DNA of 64,000 bases from NCBI RefSeq assembly GCF_000970285.1, contig NZ_CP009516.1, forward strand, positions 2,521,036 to 2,585,035. Reading direction: 5' to 3'. Position 1 is the stretch's first letter, and each line of letters starts with the position of its first letter. A program made the position numbers and the translations under genes. Source of the DNA: Methanosarcina horonobensis HB-1 = JCM 15518. GTDB taxonomy: Archaea; Halobacteriota; Methanosarcinia; Methanosarcinales; Methanosarcinaceae. The notes under the pieces are model-generated. The model did not search any database. It saw nothing but the letters and a program-made list of their open reading frames with translations, and was not told the origin of the DNA. Shown piece after piece: positions 5,069 through 60,710 of the stretch.

Positions 5069-5653
5069 AAATCGATACCCTTGATTTTGCAGCTTATTTG
5101 AGAAAGCTGACTACTGATGTTTTCAGTTCACATAATCTTCAAAATAAGGATATTAGTTTCAAACTTGACCTTGAACAGGTTGACCTTGGCATGGATATAG
5201 CAATACCTCTTGGAATCGTTGTAAACGAGCTGGTCTCAAACTCTTTCAAATATCCTTTTCCTGCTGGAAGAAAAGGAGAGATCCAGATCAATCTTCTATG
5301 AATAAGAAGAGGTTATATCATATAACCCAGAACAGTAGAGAAATTGTGCCTTTTTACTAATTCTCCTTTTATTCTACGCTGAATCCTATGACAAATTGAG
5401 TACCTTTATCTCTTTTAGGTTCAATTTCGCCGTCTATCTGCTCAACAAGAAGGTTTACAAGCTGAAACCCGAGGAAATCTGAGTTTTCAAAATCTATCTC
5501 TTTAGGGATGCCTTTTCCGTTATCCGATACTTCGAGTTTGTACTCGAAGCCATTTTTTTCCTTGCAATGTTTATCAGGACCGAAAATATCCTTTTCAGCA
5601 GCAATGGTTTCAGTTCTGAGTATATAATATATAAGAAAAGTGATTAAAAGCAT
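5068..5653. pseudogene. HisKA_2/HATPase histidine kinase fragment split by an internal inversion
   Basis: The + strand 5068-5298 encodes IDTLDFAAYLRKLTTDVF through the N-box NELVSNSFKYPF to GEIQINLL, collinear with the equivalent part of the kinase at 7054-9579. The rest of the ATPase domain (RTETIAAEKDIFG, VSDNGKGIP, GFQLVNLLVEQIDGE and the end, TAA at 5369-5371) lies on the minus strand between about 5618 and 5369. Inverting roughly 5298-5618 rejoins the frame exactly (ATC CAG ATC AAT CTT CT | C AGA ACT GAA). Sensor domains and the phospho-acceptor region are missing. A dead kinase paralogue. Confidence 0.8.
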
Positions 5654-5689
5654 TAAATCTTTTTATGCTAAATTAGTTTTTGTTTAGAA

Positions 5690-5943
5690 ATGATTTTTGA
5701 TACAATTTATTTAATATAATTTATGCTATTACTATGTACTGGAGTTGGGAAGTCGAATTGGGAAGTGGGGTGTGGGGTATCATCCGCACCAAATGAATCA
5801 CCCGGAGGGCGCTGATCCTTTCTTCGAATCGATATGCTTGGGGGAGCATAAAATCCGAAGAGACTGTATTGGGGGATACAGTAAAACAGCGCCTTTGGGT
5901 CTCTTCTTACATTACTCTTTTTACTGCTTTTTTCGCTACTTCT
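5690..5943. repeat. 250-bp non-coding repeat, copy 1
   Basis: About 250 bp that recur at 10340-10584 with roughly 80 percent identity by eye, collinear throughout. Two hairpins expose G-runs: GCT-TGGGGG-AGC at 5836-5847 and CTGTAT-TGGGGG-ATACAG at 5864-5881. Loops and stems are kept in the other copy. No open frame is conserved between copies. It could be a structured RNA, a kinase-gene leader or a mobile remnant. See findings. Confidence 0.7.
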
Positions 5944-6770: not shown

Positions 6771-7053
6771 CATACCGCTGAAAAAGAGAATTCTATCTTT
6801 TTGTTCAATTATTACTTGTTTTAATGATTTTTGGTATACAGAAAATAATGTAAAACTTATACATAAGTTGTATAAACGTAGATTTATTATATTGTCTTTA
6901 TGAACTCGTAATTACATAAACTCCATAAAATAAAATTTATTTTTCCAAAAATTCATTTATATGTAGACAAAACAAAACATGTGATTTTAAATAAAATAAG
7001 GATGTTAAACAATAAGAAATTTTTGACTTTATGCCAGAATATTGGAGAAAAAT

Positions 7054-9579
7054 ATGGATAATATTCGAGCCTCTGGCAATGATATTGTCGGAGATATTCC
7101 CTGCGGAACACATTTCTGCCTTTTCTACAGGACAAAAGAAGATCTGATAGATGTCCTTGTTCCTTATTTCAAAGCCGGACTAGACAATAACGAGTTTTGT
7201 ATATGGATCATACCAGAATCTCTTAGTTTGGAAGAGACAAAAAAAGCCTTGAGAAAGGACATTCCCGGTTTTGATTACTACATGGAAAAAAGGCAAATCG
7301 AGTTTATTTCTTATGCTAATTGGTTCTTAAAAGAAGGTACTTTCGATTCGAAAAGAACCTTAAACTGCTGGATTGAAAAGCTCAATCAGGCTCTAACCAG
7401 TGGCTACGATGGACTGAGGGTGGCAGAGGACACTAACTGGTTGGAAAAAGAAAGCTGGGATGATTTCGTTGATTATGAGGAAAAACTGGATTCCCTCACC
7501 AACGGATGCCAGATGCTAATTCTTTGTACTTATTGTCAGGATATATGTAGCGTAACAGAGACTATTGATGTGATTTCCAATCATCAAATGTCTCTTATCA
7601 AAAAGAAAGGAAAATGGGAAAAAACAGAGAATCTCACGCGAAAGAATATTACAGACCTGAAACAGGCAGAAAATATAATCTGTGAGAGCGAAGCACGTCG
7701 TAAAGTTGCTGAAGCTATTGAGGTTGAGCGGCAAAGGTTTTTTGACATGCTGGATTCACTCCCGGCAATGATATTGCTACTGACATCTGACTAGCATGTT
7801 GCCTTTGCTAACCGCAGCTTCCGTGAAAAATTCGGCGAGCCAAATGGTCGGCAATGCTATGAATACTGTTTTGCGAACACCAAGCCCTGTGAGTTTTGCA
7901 AGGCATATAAGGTACTTGAAACCGGTAAACCACACGGTTGGGAATTTACCATGCCGGACGGAAGTATATTCGATGTTTATAATGTCCCGTTTACTGATAC
8001 TGACGGTTCACCCATGATCCTCAAGATGGAAGTTGACATTACCGAGCGAAAAAAGATGGAAGGAGCTCTTAAAAAAGCACGTGATACTTTAGAAGAAAAG
8101 ATTAGACAGCGTACAGCAGAGCTTGAAAAGGCTTATAACTCTTTGAAAGAAAGCGAGAAAGGTCTAGCTGAAGCTCAAAAAATGGCTCACCTGGGCAATT
8201 GGGATTGGGATGTTGTAACTGATAAGATACATGGATCTGATGAAACTTATCGTATTTTTGGGTTAAATCCTCAAGAATGCACTGCAACTTAGAAGGAATT
8301 TTTGAACTTTGTCCATCCAGAAGATCGGGATTACGTTGATAAGGCAGTTAAAGAGGCATTAAATGGAAAGCCTTTTGACATCGACTATAGGATAATTTCA
8401 GTTTCTGGAGAAGAACATATAGTCCATATGCAATTCAAAGTCATTTTTAGTGAACAAAATGTTCCTATTCGAATAAAAGGAATTATTCAGGATATTACCG
8501 AACATAAGCATCTGGAGGAGCAAATTCGCCAGCGAGTTGAAGAACTGGAATTGATGATGGATGTTGTGCCTGTTGCCATCTTTATGGGACACGATTCACA
8601 AGGTCAAAACATTACAGGTAATAAAAAGGCAAATGAATACTCTGAAGCTGAAATTGGAGAGAATATCTCGGCAAGTATCACACATACGCGGCGCTTCTTT
8701 CATAAAGGTCGCGAGTTGCTTGCAGAAGAATTACCCGTGCAACAAGCCGCTTTAAAGGATATTGATGTGCGTGATGTAGAAATTGATTATCTGTTACCGA
8801 GTGGACAACGTAAAGTTGTTCTTGGGTCAGCTAGTCCACTACATGATTCAGAGGGGCATGTGCGTGGTAGTGTCGGCGCGTTTGTTGATATAACTGAGAG
8901 AATAGAAACCGAAGAAGCTCTGGAAAAGATGCAGGGAACCCATATAAAAGAAATTCACCACAGGATCAAAAATAATTTGCAGATAATATCATCTCTTTTA
9001 AGTCTTGAAGCTGAAAAATATAGCGATACAAAGGTTCTTGAATCCTTCAAAAACAGCCAGAACCGCGTAACCTCAATGGCTTTGATCCATGAAGAATTAT
9101 ACAAAGGTAAAGATATAGATACTATCGATTTTGCTGCCTACCTCAGGAAATTGACTGCAGACCTGCTGGATTCATACCTTGTGGGCAGTGATAATATAAC
9201 CCTCATTCTTGATCTTGAACAATCTCATTTTAATATGGATACGGCAATCCCTCTTGGAATTATTGTCAATGAATTGGTCTCAAATGCCCTGAAGCACGCT
9301 TTTCCAGACCGAAGGAAAGGAGAAATACTTGTAGCCCTGAAGAGAACGGAAAACTTTACCATATACGAGGACGAATGCAGAGAGAAGGGTAATTTCCAAC
9401 ATGTACTTACAGTGGCAGATAACGGAATAGGCTTTCCTGATGAGATAGATCTCCAAGCTGCTGAATCTCTTGGACTTCAACTCATATATGTTCTTATTGA
9501 ACAGATAGACGGCTGCATCGAACTTAAAACGGATCACGGGACTAACTTTACGATCTGGTTTAACAATTTAGAAAAATGA
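7054..9579 (+). CDS. MEDS-PAS-PAS-PAS-HisKA_2 histidine kinase with two in-frame amber codons
   Basis: One frame of 842 codons from the ATG at 7054 (GGAG site 5 bases upstream) to TGA, interrupted only by TAG at 7792-7794 (codon 247) and TAG at 8290-8292 (codon 413). Read through, it gives a MEDS sensory domain (about 10-190), a coiled linker, three PAS domains (about 230-340, 370-490 and 500-620), the HisKA_2 motif EIHHRIKNNLQ (His near 635), then HATPase with NELVSNALKHAF and VADNGIGFP. No membrane segment, so a cytosolic redox- or ligand-sensing kinase. The first amber stands in LTSD-x-HVAFANRSF and the second in TAT-x-KEFLNFVHPEDR, both places where Tyr would be usual. There are no frameshifts, TAA or TGA. 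Either pyrrolysine is inserted or truncated pieces are made; the partner response regulator is unknown. Confidence 0.75.
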
Positions 9580-9895: not shown

Positions 9896-10339
9896 TTCTA
9901 TTTTTCTGTGAGTAAGATAATTTCAGTCACCGATGAGAAAATTCCATATATCGTATCAGGTATGAAATCATTAATCACCTAAAGTCCAGCAATGGTCATT
10001 AGAAGCGTACTCTGGATGACCTGATATAGTTTCAAGATATCTGAGTTACAAAACAAGAGTTTAAGTAATCGCAAAAGTAGTATTATCATTAAAATCAGCC
10101 AAGAAGCAGATGGTAGTGGTTGAGTCCCTATTCTCAACCCTACCTGCGATCCAACCCATTGGATTAAGAGGAAACCCTATTGCCCTTAATCTAGACATAT
10201 ATAATAACAGGGTTCTATATATCATATTTGACGCAAAATGTTGTTTCTGATTTGAAATTTCAATATAATTAAAAAAATATATAATAGCAAATATTTTAAT
10301 GTTATTAAAATAAGCTATGTTAAATTATTCTTTGCTTGA
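9896..10339. other. Gene-free stretch with strong hairpins
   Basis: No ORF. At 10112-10144 a hairpin pairs GGTAG-T-GGTTGAG with CTCAACC-CTACC (12 pairs, one bulge, 8-base loop), directly followed by ATCCAA-CCCA-TTGGAT (10149-10164). The tight spacing in an otherwise AT-rich stretch suggests a small structured RNA or the end of one. Confidence 0.4.
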
Positions 10340-10584
10340 AAACAATTTTTGATATAATTTATTTTATATAATTTATGTTATTAGTATATGCCGGAGTTGG
10401 GAAGTTGAATTGGAAAGTAGGGATGGAGTATCACCAGATAAAGAATCTCCTGGGGGTTGCTGATCCTTCTTCGAATAACTTGCTTGGGGGAGCATAGTGT
10501 TCAAAGACTGTATTGGGGGATACAATAGGACAGCGCCTCTGGGTTTCTTCTTACATCATTCTTTTAGTTGCTTTTTTCGCTACT
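10340..10584. repeat. 250-bp non-coding repeat, copy 2
   Basis: Second copy of the element at 5690-5943. Hairpins at 10482-10493 (GCT-TGGGGG-AGC) and 10508-10525 (CTGTAT-TGGGGG-ATACAA). Here the element runs straight into TTTACAGGCTCACTAAGCCT at 10585, whereas copy 1 has a GNAT gene at that point. Confidence 0.7.
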
Positions 10585-10728
10585 TTTACAGGCTCACTAA
10601 GCCTCTCTTTCCATGCCCCAAATAAACTCTTAGCTGCCAGCCTTAACTTAAAGCCTTCGGGCTATGGCTTACTGCTGCATCGAAAAGGTGTTTCTTGGTG
10701 AGATTCAATCATCTGGAATCTGGCGGAA

Positions 10729-10875
10729 ATGCGTAAGATATCAGAGACAATCGATGTGATATCCAGCCATCAAATGTCTTTGATCAAAAGGAAAGGAAAA
10801 TGGAAACGGATAGAAGAAGCGGTTATGGAAGAAAAAAGCCTGATTGGTATGTCATCCAGAGAATGTTATGCTTAA
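10729..10875 (+). pseudogene. MEDS-kinase remnant
   Basis: A 48-codon frame containing ISETIDVISSHQMSLIKRKG and KWKRIEEA, collinear with the end of the MEDS domain in the kinase at 7054 (VTETIDVISNHQMSLIKKKG). The rest of the kinase is absent and the frame ends in TAA. Together with the 250-bp repeat just upstream it marks a lost paralogue of the neighbouring kinase. Confidence 0.75.
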
Positions 10876-42535: not shown

Positions 42536-42811
42536 ATGGCTTTGGACACTTATTCGACAACAATCGCAGTGGCATCAATTGCCGTCTCTGGCATTACAAT
42601 AGGCATCGGGGTTATCGGGCCCGCAATTGGTGAAGGGCGAGCTGTTGCGACGGCTCTGAGTTCACTGGCACAGCAACCCGATGCTTCCGCAACAATAACC
42701 AGGACTCTGTTCGTGGGATTGGCTATGATCGAGTCTCTGGCTATCTATTGTTTTGTGGTCTCTATGATTCTCATTTTCGCCAATCCGTTCTGGGACCGTG
42801 CACTTACTTGA
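42536..42811 (+). CDS. atpE: N-ATPase subunit c (Na+-type)
   Basis: A 91-residue two-helix proteolipid. Helix 1 contains GPAIGEGRAVATAL with Glu33, helix 2 contains AMIESLAIY with Glu66, Ser67 and Tyr71. Aligned to the Na+-binding c subunit of Ilyobacter (GPGVGQG; AVAESTGIY), Glu33 stands where Gln32 is, and Glu66/Ser67/Tyr71 match ligand positions. The two carboxylates per hairpin are characteristic of N-ATPase, so Na+ coupling is expected from the family; it is not proven here. Strong AAGGAA ribosome site. Confidence 0.94.
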   Translation: MALDTYSTTIAVASIAVSGITIGIGVIGPAIGEGRAVATALSSLAQQPDASATITRTLFVGLAMIESLAIYCFVVSMILIFANPFWDRALT

Positions 42812-42830
42812 TTTATAGAGGAAAATTATC

Positions 42831-43913
42831 ATGCCGCTAATCGATTGGTTCACAGTTATTGCGCAAGTGATTAATTTCCTCATCCTTGTGTGGTTGTTGA
42901 AGCGCTTTCTTTATAAACCCATACTTAACGCCATTGATGCACGTGAGAAGAGGGTAGCAGATGAACTTGCGAATGCAGATACGAAAAAGGCAGAAGCGGA
43001 AAAAGAGAAAGAGGAGTTCAAGCATAAGAACGAGGAGTTCGATCAGCAGCGCAGTGCCCTCTTAAATAAGGCAAAAGAAGACGCAAAAGCTGAACGTCAG
43101 CGGTTTTTTGAAGAAGTAAGAAAAGAAGCCTCCGATTTGAGAGCAAAACAGCAGGAGGCATTAAAGAACGAAGAAGAAAACCTAAGTCAGGAAATCGGTC
43201 GCCGGACCCAGCAGGAAATATTTAGCATAGCGCGAAAAGTACTGGAAGACCTGGCTGGAACCAGTTTGGAAGAACGCGCAGTTGATGTGTTTTCTCAAAG
43301 GATGCGCACTCTGAATGATGAGGAAAAGAAACAGTTAGCTTCAGCACTTGGTGCATCACTAGGGCAGGTGCTCGTTCGTACTGCGTTTGACCTTCCACAG
43401 GAACAGCGTGACTCGATTAAAAAGACGATTAAAGAAACTCTTGGTATAGAAACTCAACCAAAATTCGAGACAGTGCCAGATCTTATCAGTGGTATCGAAT
43501 TAACTACAGATGGACAAAAAGTGGCGTGGAGCATTGCAGACTATCTTACATCTCTGCAAAAAAGTATCGACGAACTGCTGAAAGAGCAGCCAAGAAGTAA
43601 AGCCAGAATCGAGCCTCAAACCGAAAATAACAAACCCAGGTCGGAAAACGAACCAGAAACTGAACAAGAGCCGGAAGCTGAGGCCAATAAACCCGAATCA
43701 AAAACTGAATCAGAAGGTGAAACCAGACCTGAAACTGATTATAATAAGCCCAAATCGAGAAAAGAGCCGGAAGCTGAGGCCAATAAACCCGAATCAAAAA
43801 CTGAATCAGAAGGTGAAACCAGACCTGAAACTGATTATAATAAGCCCAAATCGAGAAAAGAGCCGGAAGCTAAACAGGAACCTGATGCAAAACAAGAATC
43901 TGAGGTTAAATAG
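42831..43913 (+). CDS. atpF: N-ATPase subunit b with a long, repetitive charged tail
   Basis: A 360-residue b subunit. Residues 1-25 form the single transmembrane helix ([20 protein letters not shown]), 30-150 the coiled coil of the stator, and 150-245 a segment that probably covers the delta function, since N-ATPase lacks a separate delta gene ([38 protein letters not shown]). After about 255 the sequence becomes a Glu/Lys/Pro/Ser-rich tail with an exact 32-residue duplication. The frame ends at TAG (43911-43913); in the same frame another 21 codons in the same style follow up to TAA at 43977. Whether the TAG terminates or is decoded as pyrrolysine is open. Confidence 0.92.
43668..43859 (+). 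repeat. Exact 96-bp tandem duplication inside atpF
   Basis: Copy 1 43668-43763 and copy 2 43764-43859 are identical, and a 12-base third start (GAGCCGGAAGCT) follows. 96 bp equal 32 codons, so the frame stays intact. Perfect identity points to a recent event. Confidence 0.95.
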
Positions 43914-43986
43914 GAATCTGGAGCCAGATTCGAATCTGTGGCTAAGCAGGAGACCAAGTTTAAAACAAAGCCCATATAAAGAGCCA

Positions 43987-45654
43987 ATGAACATGGAACC
44001 TGAAAGTCTTAAGAATATTTTTGATAAAGTTTTCACCGAAATAGGTCAAGCCAGGGAATCAGTAACCCCGAAGCTTGCTCCGCAAGAGGTTGGCAGTATT
44101 TTGACAGTCTCTACAGGCATTGCAAATGTTTCCGGCCTTCCTACTGTAGGCTTCGATGAACTTATAAAATTTCCAGGGGATCTGTTCGGGATCGCGTTTA
44201 ACGTTGATGAAAAAGAAATAGGTACCGTTCTACTGGGTGAATACTCACATCTGCATGCGGGAGATCAAGTTGAACGCACTCGACGGGTTATGGATGTTGC
44301 TGTAGGCGAAGAATTGCTTGGACGAGTTATTGATCCGCTAGGTCGTCCACTTGATGACAAAGGACCAATAGTTACCAGTAAGCGCTTGCCTATCGAACGA
44401 CCCAGTCCGGCAATTATGGATCGATCTCCTGTTACTGTGCCTCTCCAGACAGGTATCAAAGTTATTGATGCTTTAATTCCTATCGGGCGTGGCCAGAGAG
44501 AACTGATTTTAGGGGACCGCCAGACTGGCAAAACCGCAATTGCAATCGATACTATCCTTAACCAGCGCAATTTTAACGTATTGTGTGTTTATTGTGCTAT
44601 TGGTCAGCGTGCATCCGCAGTTGCCAGAGCAGTGGCAAACTTACGGGAAAGGGGTGCAATGGATTACACGATTGTTGTTGTAACTGAAGGCAATGACCCA
44701 TCCGGACTAATCTATATTGCTCCTTATGCTGCGACCAGCATTGCAGAGTATTTTATGGAAGCAGGTCGGGACGTGCTGATTGTTTACGACGATCTTACCA
44801 ATCATGCGCGTGCATATCGAGAACTTTCCCTTTTACTTCGCCGTCCTCCAGGGAGAGAAGCGTACCCAGGTGACATCTTTTATATTCACTCGCGACTGCT
44901 GGAGCGGTCTACGCACCTGCTCAAAGAACTGGGTGGAGGCTCACTCACTGCCCTTCCTATTATCGAAACCGAAGCACAAAATATTTCCGCCTATATTCCA
45001 ACTAACCTGATTTCAATTACAGACGGGCAGATTTACCTCTCACCTTCACTTTTTGAATTGAGTGTGCTTCCTGCAGTTGATGTCGGCAAATCCGTTTCTC
45101 GTGTAGGCGGTAAAGCACAGCTTGCTGCCTATAGGGCAGTGGCTGGAGATCTCAAGCTTGCCTATTCACAATTTGAAGAGCTCGAAGCGTTTACCAGATT
45201 CGGCGCAAGGCTGGATGAAAATACACGAAAAGTAATTGAGCATGGGAGGCGGGTCCGCACCCTCCTGAAGCAACCTCAAAACTCTCCTGTACCCGTGCCC
45301 GATCAGATTGTTATTCTTGTTGCATTGAATGCAAAACTCTTCGACAATGTGCCGCTTGATAAAATGGGAGAGGCTGAGAGTGCCCTCCGCAAGGCAGTGT
45401 CAGATATTCCTTCTGATTTACGCGATCGGTTCAAAGGCGATAAAGAATTGAGCGACAAGGATCGCGAGACTATCCTTGATATCGCCCGCAAAGCACTGGA
45501 GCCTTACCAGCCAAAGCCCAAATCCGAATCCAAGCCGGAAGAAGCTAAAACCGAGGAAAAACATGAGTTAGGGACCCAGACTGAAGAAAAATTGAGTAAG
45601 TCAGAAGCCCAAACTGAAGGAAAGTCCGAGCCGGAAGCTAAGGAGAAATCATGA
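43987..45654 (+). CDS. atpA: N-ATPase alpha subunit with charged C-terminal extension
   Basis: A 555-residue alpha subunit. The frame is open upstream to 43717 but overlaps the atpF tail in another frame, so the ATG at 43987 ([16 protein letters not shown]) is the sensible start. Seen: the beta-barrel ([20 protein letters not shown]), the P-loop GDRQTGKT (176-183), [20 protein letters not shown] and [19 protein letters not shown]. Alpha binds nucleotide without catalysing and alternates with beta. The final 45 residues are an acidic Glu/Lys/Ser/Pro tail ([20 protein letters not shown]) not found in standard alpha subunits. The stop overlaps the atpG start (ATGA). Confidence 0.93.
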
Positions 45655-55749: not shown

Positions 55750-56188
55750 AAGTTTAAATAGATTTTTTTAAAGATTAATACAACTATATACTTTTTTTTC
55801 ACAAATACTTTTGAGCTATTTTTTTAAGTTAAACCACTTTCAACTGACTTGATCAGATAACTTCATCTATTAAAAAAAATCTTTCGTTACTACTTTCATA
55901 AATTTATATTTGATAATTTTAGAACAGGCATCAAGTTGAAGCCATTTAATTATTCCGGGCAATAAACTGGTTAAAGACCAAAAAAATCCGTTTTTCAGTG
56001 CATTTAGAAAGAGATTATCTGGATATGAAAGAAATTATCTGATATTCGCTTAATCAAAAACACAATTCGCTTTCCTCTTTACGATTTAGTTTCTACTTTT
56101 AAGGCCAGTATATATTTAGCCTTTTCATGAAATTGTGGTCTCTGCCAGAATAACTATATAGTTTTACCTCACAAATTATTCTGATTAT
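55750..56188. other. AT-rich spacer
   Basis: Runs of T and A without ORF. AGTATATATTTAGCC at 56108-56122 and TAACTATATAGTTTTAC at 56150-56166 are the better promoter candidates for the ATPase gene. Confidence 0.4.
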
Positions 56189-57553
56189 ATGCAAAGACTT
56201 GAACTTCTTCCCCTGGTTCTTGACCACCAAAAATTTTTCCAAAACCCCTCTGATATAATCTCACGCTACATTCCAGTTTTCCCATGTCTGGACGGGAGCG
56301 AGATCAATGTGATCTGTGGTCCACTCCATGCAGGTAAGACTTCCTTCCTGAGGCAGGTCGCAGACCTTGTGCAGTGTATGAAGATTTACATTAATTTTGA
56401 AGACAGCAGGTTTAAAGAAATGGAACCTGAAAGCCTTCAGGAAATCGAAGAAATTGCAGCTGAATTTTATAGAAAAGGATCTGGAGATGAAGAAGGGTTT
56501 GAAAATGAAGATAAGTCTTATGAGGAAAGGCCTGCCGGACCGACCTGCTATTTCCTTGATGAAATCCAGAATTTCTCTGGCTGGGAGGACTGGATTGACA
56601 GGCTTCAATGCGGTGGAGCAAAGGTGTTTATAACATCTTCGTCCTCAAGTCTCATGACTCAGGATATCTCTTCTCGCTTTTCAAACAGGATAAGGACTCT
56701 CAGGCTTCTGCCTTTTTCCTTTAAAGAATATCTTATCCTGAATGGTCTAATGGTCCCAAGGCCTAACTTCCTTACACCTTCCAGGTGCGATGAAATGCTA
56801 TGTCTGTTCCTGCGCTATTTTGAAACCGGCGGCTTTCCGGAGGTAATCAGTAACGGAGACTTCAGGCTTTCCAGGCAGTTTTTTGAGGAAATCCTGCGAA
56901 AGGAGATCATTGCCAGGCATAATATTCAGGATCCAGACGGGTTGAAAAACCTTGCAGTTTTCCTGATCTCGAACATGGCATCGGAATACTGCATGGATAC
57001 TTTGAAAAAAGTGAGTGGGATCAACAGCGAAAACACTATTAGTAACTATCTGGACTATCTGGAAGAAGCTTTTTTGCTGTTCCGGGTCCCCATGTTTAAT
57101 CACGGATTTGAAAAATCGGAAAACGGAAGAGAAAACGAAAATGGAAAAGAAGTCCCGTATAAAGTGTATGCTGGAGACACAGGTTTCTTCAAATCAGTAT
57201 TTCCCAATTATCCGGATAGCCTTGGCTTAAGATTTGAAAACATTGTATTTCTTGAACTGCTAAGGAAGGGCAAGGAGATCTCTTATTTCCGTGGCAAGAG
57301 AGAATGCGATTTCCTTATATGTGAAAAAGACAGCCAGACTGTTACGACTGCGGTTCAGGTCTCTGTCTGCTTCGGAGGTTCTGCAGTAAGGGAACGGGAA
57401 GTCCTCGGGCTTATGGAAGCAATGGAAGAGTTCGGGCTTAAAGAAGGGCTTATCCTTACAATGGACGATGAAGGAGTTATGGAAATAGATGGAAAGGACG
57501 GAGAAAAGAAAAGAATAGTAATTAACTCGGTATGGAAATGGATGCTGGAATAA
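56189..57553 (+). CDS. AAA ATPase with DUF4143 C-terminal domain
   Basis: A 454-residue protein of the AAA_14/DUF4143 group. Walker A-like GPLHAGKT (44-51), Walker B TCYFLDEIQNFSGW (about 117-130), sensor ITSSSSSLMTQDIS, then the helical middle and a nuclease-like C-terminal domain (LRFENIVFLELLRKG, ISYFRGKRECDFLI with the E-x-D-F motif). These proteins are widespread in archaea, function unknown, sometimes linked to toxin-like or DNA-processing roles. Acidic low-complexity insert at 90-110 (GDEEGFENEDKSYEE). Leader is very short: TATATA lies 20-30 bases before the ATG. Confidence 0.87.
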   Translation: MQRLELLPLVLDHQKFFQNPSDIISRYIPVFPCLDGSEINVICGPLHAGKTSFLRQVADLVQCMKIYINFEDSRFKEMEPESLQEIEEIAAEFYRKGSGDEEGFENEDKSYEERPAGPTCYFLDEIQNFSGWEDWIDRLQCGGAKVFITSSSSSLMTQDISSRFSNRIRTLRLLPFSFKEYLILNGLMVPRPNFLTPSRCDEMLCLFLRYFETGGFPEVISNGDFRLSRQFFEEILRKEIIARHNIQDPDGLKNLAVFLISNMASEYCMDTLKKVSGINSENTISNYLDYLEEAFLLFRVPMFNHGFEKSENGRENENGKEVPYKVYAGDTGFFKSVFPNYPDSLGLRFENIVFLELLRKGKEISYFRGKRECDFLICEKDSQTVTTAVQVSVCFGGSAVREREVLGLMEAMEEFGLKEGLILTMDDEGVMEIDGKDGEKKRIVINSVWKWMLE

Positions 57554-59306: not shown

Positions 59307-60710
59307 TCAGGCAATCTGTTTCCTGAAGAGTTCGCAGGAATTAATCTTTATATCGAGCAGCTTCTCGATGTTCATTTTTGCGGCAATGCCTTTGGCTGCA
59401 CCCGGAACTGAGGTAATGATTCCAATATCGAGTTCCTCACGGAGCTCGCGCATTACATGTTCGTCAGCAAGGTCCCTGGTTTCGACATTTAGTTTCTTTG
59501 CTACGTACTCCTTTGCCTCTCCGATGCGCATATTCTTTGAGAATTCCATCCTTGCAACAAGGTCGCCTGCTGCTCTCATTCCTGTCATTCCTGAAGCCAT
59601 TATGTGGGAAATCGGCATACCCAGCGGGTCGCCGACCCCGATCTATATGCCGTCTACTCCGGCAACCTCGACCATTGCCTTGCTTGCCCTTGTAACGGCA
59701 TCAATCGGAGGAGTCTCAAGCATGGGGATTCCGCCAACACCCATGCCCATATTCACATGGCAGGGGATTGAAGAAATTTCAACTGCTGCTTTTATGAATG
59801 TAACAGCTCGTGCCAGATTCCACGGAGAAGTCTTACTGGTATTGGTATTGCATACGGGTCCGAAAACGTTTGCTCCTGCTTTTGCTGCAAGAGGTGCTTG
59901 TTCATGAGGCCAGAGCCCTGCAAGGCGCACGCCATCGTATTCCAGTTCTCCATGCATACCGAGCACCATCTCTCCTGCCATGCCAACTTCGATATACATC
60001 TCCGGAAATTGAGCCCTCAGGATTTCAACTGCACTGAGTGTGCCATACATATCGGCATCTCCGGCTGCAGCAGTTGTGTCAAAATTGACGCCATCAGCTC
60101 CGGAGGCAAGAAGCTTTTGCATAACCCATACGGTATCCCTTGTAAGATGTTCGGCTGCATGTTCCATGGATTTCTGTGCTTTATCGATCTTGAACATCTT
60201 CATTAAGTCGCCCGGGTTTTCGAAGGGGCCGTCAGGAGTATAATAAAGTCCCATGTTCGGCATTGCGCCGTAAAAGAGAGGAATGATCATATTCTGCTGG
60301 CAGGCTTCCATTGCCTGGCACTCGTTTGCAACAACAGGCTTTACCGGCTTGAAACTATAGTCAATGTGCCCGAGTTCCATCGTATCTGCACCAAAAGCTC
60401 TTTCATGCACCATGCAGCCGACAAGCCGGCTTGAAGGGATGCCAACTCCACTGTTGCCCTGGTCACCGTCAAGCCTGAGGGTCCCGATGTCGTGAGTGAC
60501 CGGTACTTCCATACCCTGCTCGACACTGACGGCTTTTCCGGGCATCATAAGGATTTCGGCAAGCTTGTCGATTTCATTAGCACTGAGATCAGGGATTTCT
60601 CCCAGATCAGCAGCATTTGCTGAGCCTGATTCGATTTCACTGAGGATTTTTTCTTTCGTGAGGTAGATTCTTTTACCATCACCCATCCTCAAAGCGTATT
60701 CAGTAACCAT
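59307..60710 (-). CDS. mtbB: Dimethylamine:corrinoid methyltransferase, pyrrolysine protein
   Basis: A 467-residue enzyme read through an amber codon at 59643-59645 (codon 356). It transfers a methyl group from dimethylamine to the Co(I) corrinoid of MtbC in methanogenesis. Seen: [20 protein letters not shown] at the start, [20 protein letters not shown]-like first half, [33 protein letters not shown], and around the amber VDGI[18 protein letters not shown]. After the amber 111 residues follow without another stop ([20 protein letters not shown]). Length matches known MtbB proteins. Pyrrolysine supplies the amine-binding group. It lies 110 bp behind mtbC and 26 bases before mtbP. Confidence 0.97.

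Follow-up and report, generated by a model that had tools for sequence, protein, structure and literature searches.

RdmS (MA0863) of Methanosarcina acetivorans is a sensor kinase of PAS-GAF type architecture that lacks an H-box (PMC11784639). Its PAS region contains an in-frame TAG, and a published construct, RdmS_O216K (PMC7542351), names residue 216 as pyrrolysine (O). Pyrrolysine histidine kinases have been predicted for Methanohalophilus mahii, M. acetivorans and M. barkeri as the amber "sensory transduction histidine kinase" cluster 16, reported as a conserved cluster (PMC3639795). Among histidine kinases with a MEDS domain, those of the MA2082 type (MA_type 3, PMC11784639) are cytoplasmic and possess an H-box; MA2082 itself is uninterrupted as described, and its autokinase activity has been shown (PMC11784639). 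Outside the kinases, Thg1, the tRNA-His guanylyltransferase of M. acetivorans, has an in-frame TAG that is not essential for activity (PMC2933860), and which the title of a paper cited in PMC2933860 ascribes to neutral evolution. An ordinary UAG reporter in the same organism gave 20-30% full-length product (PMC2933860).

The question at stake is whether UAG outside the methylamine methyltransferases is used or merely tolerated in pyrrolysine archaea. Here we consider it for a kinase gene with two internal TAG codons from Methanosarcina horonobensis HB-1, located in a stretch of 64,000 nucleotides that we refer to as the window.

The kinase reading frame and its host

The kinase reading frame (7054..9579, + strand) runs for 841 codons to a TGA and, as the initial annotation had stated, is a single frame with two TAGs and without any other stop or frameshift. 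Six bases upstream of the ATG at 7054 is a GGAG (7044..7047, +), probably the ribosome-binding site. The further claim that the frame, when read through, encodes the full domain set of a MEDS-PAS-HisKA_2 kinase was also confirmed. With TAG taken as sense, Pfam matches above cut-off were obtained, all on the + strand, for MEDS (residues 19-178, 7108..7587; PF14417, E 2.9e-45), PAS_3 (residues 392-478, 8227..8487), PAS_9 (residues 506-615, 8569..8898), HisKA_2 (residues 633-708, 8950..9177) with an intact H-box, HHRIKNNLQ, and HATPase_c (residues 732-836, 9247..9561) with intact N and G boxes; the one frame thus has the composition that defines a MEDS-PAS-HisKA_2 histidine kinase. A weak PAS_8 match together with the fold model places another PAS domain, the first of the protein, at about residues 228-328 (7735..8037, +).

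In the fold predicted for the frame with TAG taken as sense every domain is formed, with a mean pLDDT of 78. The model puts the TAG at codon 247 (7792..7794, +) in the turn between strands 1 and 2 of the first PAS domain, and the TAG at codon 413 (8290..8292, +) at residue 1 of a short helix of the second; judged from this secondary structure, both sites look tolerant of substitution. A stop at either codon results in loss of the kinase part. The RNA structure downstream of each TAG was nothing unusual (z 1.2 and 0.5).

The initial annotation had put both stops at positions where related PAS domains usually have Tyr. This held in part. Of 111 related PAS domains, 78 bear it out for site 413, but in the closest paralogue the codon is CTT (Leu) at that site and CAT (His) at site 247. 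In the close PAS type, site 247 is either Tyr or His. Two other positions of the kinase are unusual, Cys at MEDS position 17, which is Trp in 19 of 24 MEDS domains, and Gly at PAS position 394, which is Trp in 88 of 111 PAS domains. Of 37 kinases compared, it also has the core that agrees least with the conserved positions, although most of the changes are conservative. Cys17, Gly394 and the low core agreement may be read as mild hints of relaxation. At the same MEDS Trp17, two other Methanosarcina HisKA_2 kinases (L157 and L111) have a TAG.

The host genome, a single contig of 5.02 Mb, contains pylS (C1:4854312, 429 bits) and TAG-containing mtbB genes, and therefore UAG can be decoded there; the premise that the host is able to read TAG as pyrrolysine proved sound. 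One of the mtbB genes lies in the window (59307..60707, - strand, in-frame TAG at 59645), where it marks the host as a UAG decoder and is not part of the kinase. TAG terminates 7 of 191 long genes in sampled stretches of the host genome, and UAG in this organism thus seldom serves as a stop and is open to decoding. An AAA/DUF4143 gene of the window (56135-57553) was considered as another TAG-interrupted gene and rejected, its TAG being upstream of the likely ATG; a coding-score scan for interrupted genes (800 kb sampled plus the window) was too noisy for that purpose, and most of its matches were adjacent genes.

Relatives, decay and surroundings

An alignment of orthologues had been suggested as a means of determining whether the two codons are Tyr, TAG or broken elsewhere. 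No orthologue of the kinase was found in the 30 other Methanosarcina genomes. The best matches were paralogues (41-61%) of mixed domain order, and a related-locus search of genome contigs recovered distant relatives only. Given that the orthologue is absent from these 30 genomes, neither TAG is conserved, and as far as can be seen from the sequences both are private to the window kinase.

The closest paralogue, encoded in the same genome (C1:1722893-1726300), shares 61% identity with the window kinase over residues 1-539. It is a MEDS-PAS-HisKA_2 kinase of full length, and its sole lesion is one TGA, a codon that cannot be decoded as pyrrolysine. The initial annotation had reasoned that a frame interrupted by ambers only points to recoding. 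This did not stand up, since the nearest full-length paralogue is equally intact and yet is broken by TGA.

Several measures of decay were applied to the kinase, all of which average over a time far longer than the probable age of the TAGs. The coding score is flat across the three segments set by the TAGs (0.06, 0.06 and 0.08), and in a phylogeny built from 58 kinase cores those of the window kinase and its sister have equal root-to-tip lengths (0.98 each). The proposed test of synonymous against non-synonymous change downstream of the TAGs gave a partial answer: measured against the closest paralogue, pN/pS is 0.36 upstream of the first TAG, 0.27 from there to the second and 0.32 beyond it, with no relaxation detectable, but the comparison is mostly older than the TAGs since the paralogue does not have them. 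The flat coding score, the pN/pS values and a branch length that is not raised together indicate TAGs that are either young or of mild effect, without showing that the gene is used. Searched for signs of a pseudogene, the kinase has no frameshift, TAA, TGA or raised substitution rate, and a very young pseudogene would look alike.

The surroundings of the gene contain the debris of other kinases. Similarity to the window kinase identified a kinase-core remnant at 5071..5295 (+ strand, query residues 688-762) and an inverted one at 5378..5635 (- strand, query residues 758-837), and a MEDS remnant at 10725..10815 (+ strand) has 80% DNA identity to 7539-7620. The kinase is flanked by two stretches, 5627-5941 and 10279-10585, that are diverged duplicates (76-88%) of one another, with the MEDS remnant further downstream. 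The flanking duplicates and the MEDS remnant look like the product of an old tandem duplication of which one kinase copy was mostly lost. A suspected DNA repeat flanking the kinase was rejected, as it is not a repeat family. Given the TGA-broken paralogue, another kinase of the host genome with one TAG and a frameshift, and the kinase and MEDS fragments with their duplicated flanks, this kinase family is in turnover.

The link to methylamine growth put forward in the initial annotation was not found. No methyltransferase genes adjoin the kinase, and mtbB is ~50 kb away. Elsewhere in the window, at 42798-45654, genes for ATP synthase subunits of B-like and alpha/beta type make up a cluster of bacterial (N-ATPase-like) type, here in a methanogen.

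RdmS and the lesions of other kinases

The host genome encodes a PAS-GAF kinase with one TAG (C1:4123744 onward) that is the orthologue of RdmS. The TAG is residue 216, counted from the ATG, and because this matches RdmS_O216K the strongly conserved pyrrolysine sensor kinase seen here is one already known. All 16 orthologues (12 from Methanosarcina and 4 from a second genus, 80-92% identity) have the TAG at this site, and dN/dS downstream of it is 0.04-0.07 in the 12 TAG-bearing Methanosarcina orthologues; the depth of this conservation may be under-reported. At the RdmS site an MsmS-like paralogue without the TAG (genome G086) carries a Lys codon, AAG, and Gln is found in more distant relatives. 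RdmS thereby provides a clear test for telling conserved pyrrolysine kinases apart from genes with incidental ambers, and on sequence comparison the window kinase fails the test of TAG conservation that RdmS passes.

The chance that two ambers arose without other kinds of lesion can be estimated from the kinase's own codons, for which the expected nonsense changes are ~0.32 TAG, 0.45 TAA and 0.24 TGA. The chance that both of two nonsense changes are TAG is 0.09-0.11, or 0.005-0.03 when indels are counted as possible lesions at assumed ratios, figures that ignore the choice of this gene among many broken kinases.

Among the HisKA_2 kinase matches listed from 31 Methanosarcina genomes, the window kinase included, the internal lesions are 7 TAG, 2 TGA and 0 TAA once end-of-gene stops are removed, a step that dropped three apparent Methanosarcina lesions. 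Against the shares expected from the kinase's codons, a binomial calculation by hand gives P ~0.006 for this lean toward TAG, and ~0.04 without the two codons of the window kinase, the numbers being small and the set not chosen beforehand. Some of the tallied kinases are also frameshifted, and those genes are therefore decaying rather than recoded. The likeliest reading of the lean is that pyrrolysine suppression makes ambers less costly and longer-lasting, and some amber kinases could be made and used. Should the lean be borne out by larger counts, it would show that suppression influences the kinds of stop codon that persist in these genomes. A second kinase family has, besides RdmS, only 1 TAG and 2 TGA as apparent lesions. 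The non-TAG stops of kinases in other genera were considered as a lesion control and rejected, those examined being natural gene ends.

Explanations for the two ambers and comparison with known systems

We think it probable that the gene encodes a lineage-specific, redundant MEDS-PAS-HisKA_2 kinase with two recent, tolerated ambers, which are incidental and not an evolved methylamine-dependent switch. If the gene is expressed, as we infer, most ribosomes would terminate at codon 247, yielding a 246-residue MEDS fragment without the kinase, and some full-length kinase would leak through because the host charges a UAG-reading tRNA with pyrrolysine. By analogy with the 20-30% per codon in an ordinary gene of M. 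acetivorans (PMC2933860), double suppression would give ~4-9% full-length protein. The ambers would persist because the gene is presumably dispensable and suppression blunts their cost. Two ambers with no other lesion are, on the other hand, somewhat unlikely under plain decay, and the TAG lean among Methanosarcina HisKA_2 kinase lesions also stands against this explanation.

The proposal of the initial annotation is a functional pyrrolysine kinase in which both UAGs would be routinely decoded, so that full-length protein would form only when pyrrolysine is made and signalling would be tied to methylamine growth. Parts of that proposal agree with the data, namely a UAG-decoding host, catalytic motifs that are all intact, no relaxation downstream of the TAGs, a conserved pyrrolysine kinase in the same genome and a kinase family whose lesions lean to TAG; the modelled positions of the TAGs at a turn and a helix start should moreover accommodate a bulky residue. 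Nevertheless we consider it unlikely, given that no orthologue in the 30 other Methanosarcina genomes carries the TAGs, that losses multiply over two successive UAGs, and that a methyltransferase neighbour is absent, while the TGA-broken sister demonstrates that a single nonsense codon in an otherwise intact frame does not call for decoding. More speculative still is a double-pyrrolysine sensor, in which the amount of enzyme would respond steeply to pyrrolysine supply, with ambers tolerated or used more widely across the expanded Methanosarcina kinase family, as the TAG lean hints.

The debris on both sides of the gene and the other broken kinases of the host genome might instead suggest an early-stage dead pseudogene, unexpressed or untranslated beyond the first TAG, in which pyrrolysine has no role. 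The radical changes at the conserved Trp17 and Trp394 and the lowest conserved-core agreement among 37 kinases are in keeping with this, but a frame without frameshift, TAA or TGA, and with neither pN/pS nor branch length raised, makes it an improbable description of the gene. Given that MEDS is complete upstream of codon 247 and that an AAGGA precedes a TTG at 8302, it might also be imagined that the gene is split, either with the 246-residue MEDS fragment under selection or with internal starts, such as that TTG, giving separate polypeptides. This is very improbable, since in the model both TAGs cut PAS domains past the first strand, and conservation of the PAS and kinase regions beyond them matches that of the MEDS part.

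Compared with the known systems, the window kinase resembles RdmS in being a sensor kinase whose PAS region holds an in-frame TAG, and differs from it in architecture and in having an H-box. For RdmS the TAG is present in every one of the 16 orthologues and the sequence after it is under strong purifying selection, whereas the window kinase has neither an orthologue nor a conserved TAG. Similarly, the amber histidine kinases of cluster 16 are reported as a conserved cluster (PMC3639795), whereas the window kinase belongs to no conserved cluster. In its MEDS domain and H-box it is like the cytoplasmic kinases of the MA2082 type, which differ in the uninterrupted state described for MA2082. The window kinase shares with Thg1 a lineage-restricted in-frame TAG that relatives do not have, although readthrough of Thg1 was shown by experiment and the window kinase has two TAGs. 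The case argues for tolerance of UAG, and by analogy is best explained as one like Thg1 of M. acetivorans, with leaky full-length synthesis at most.
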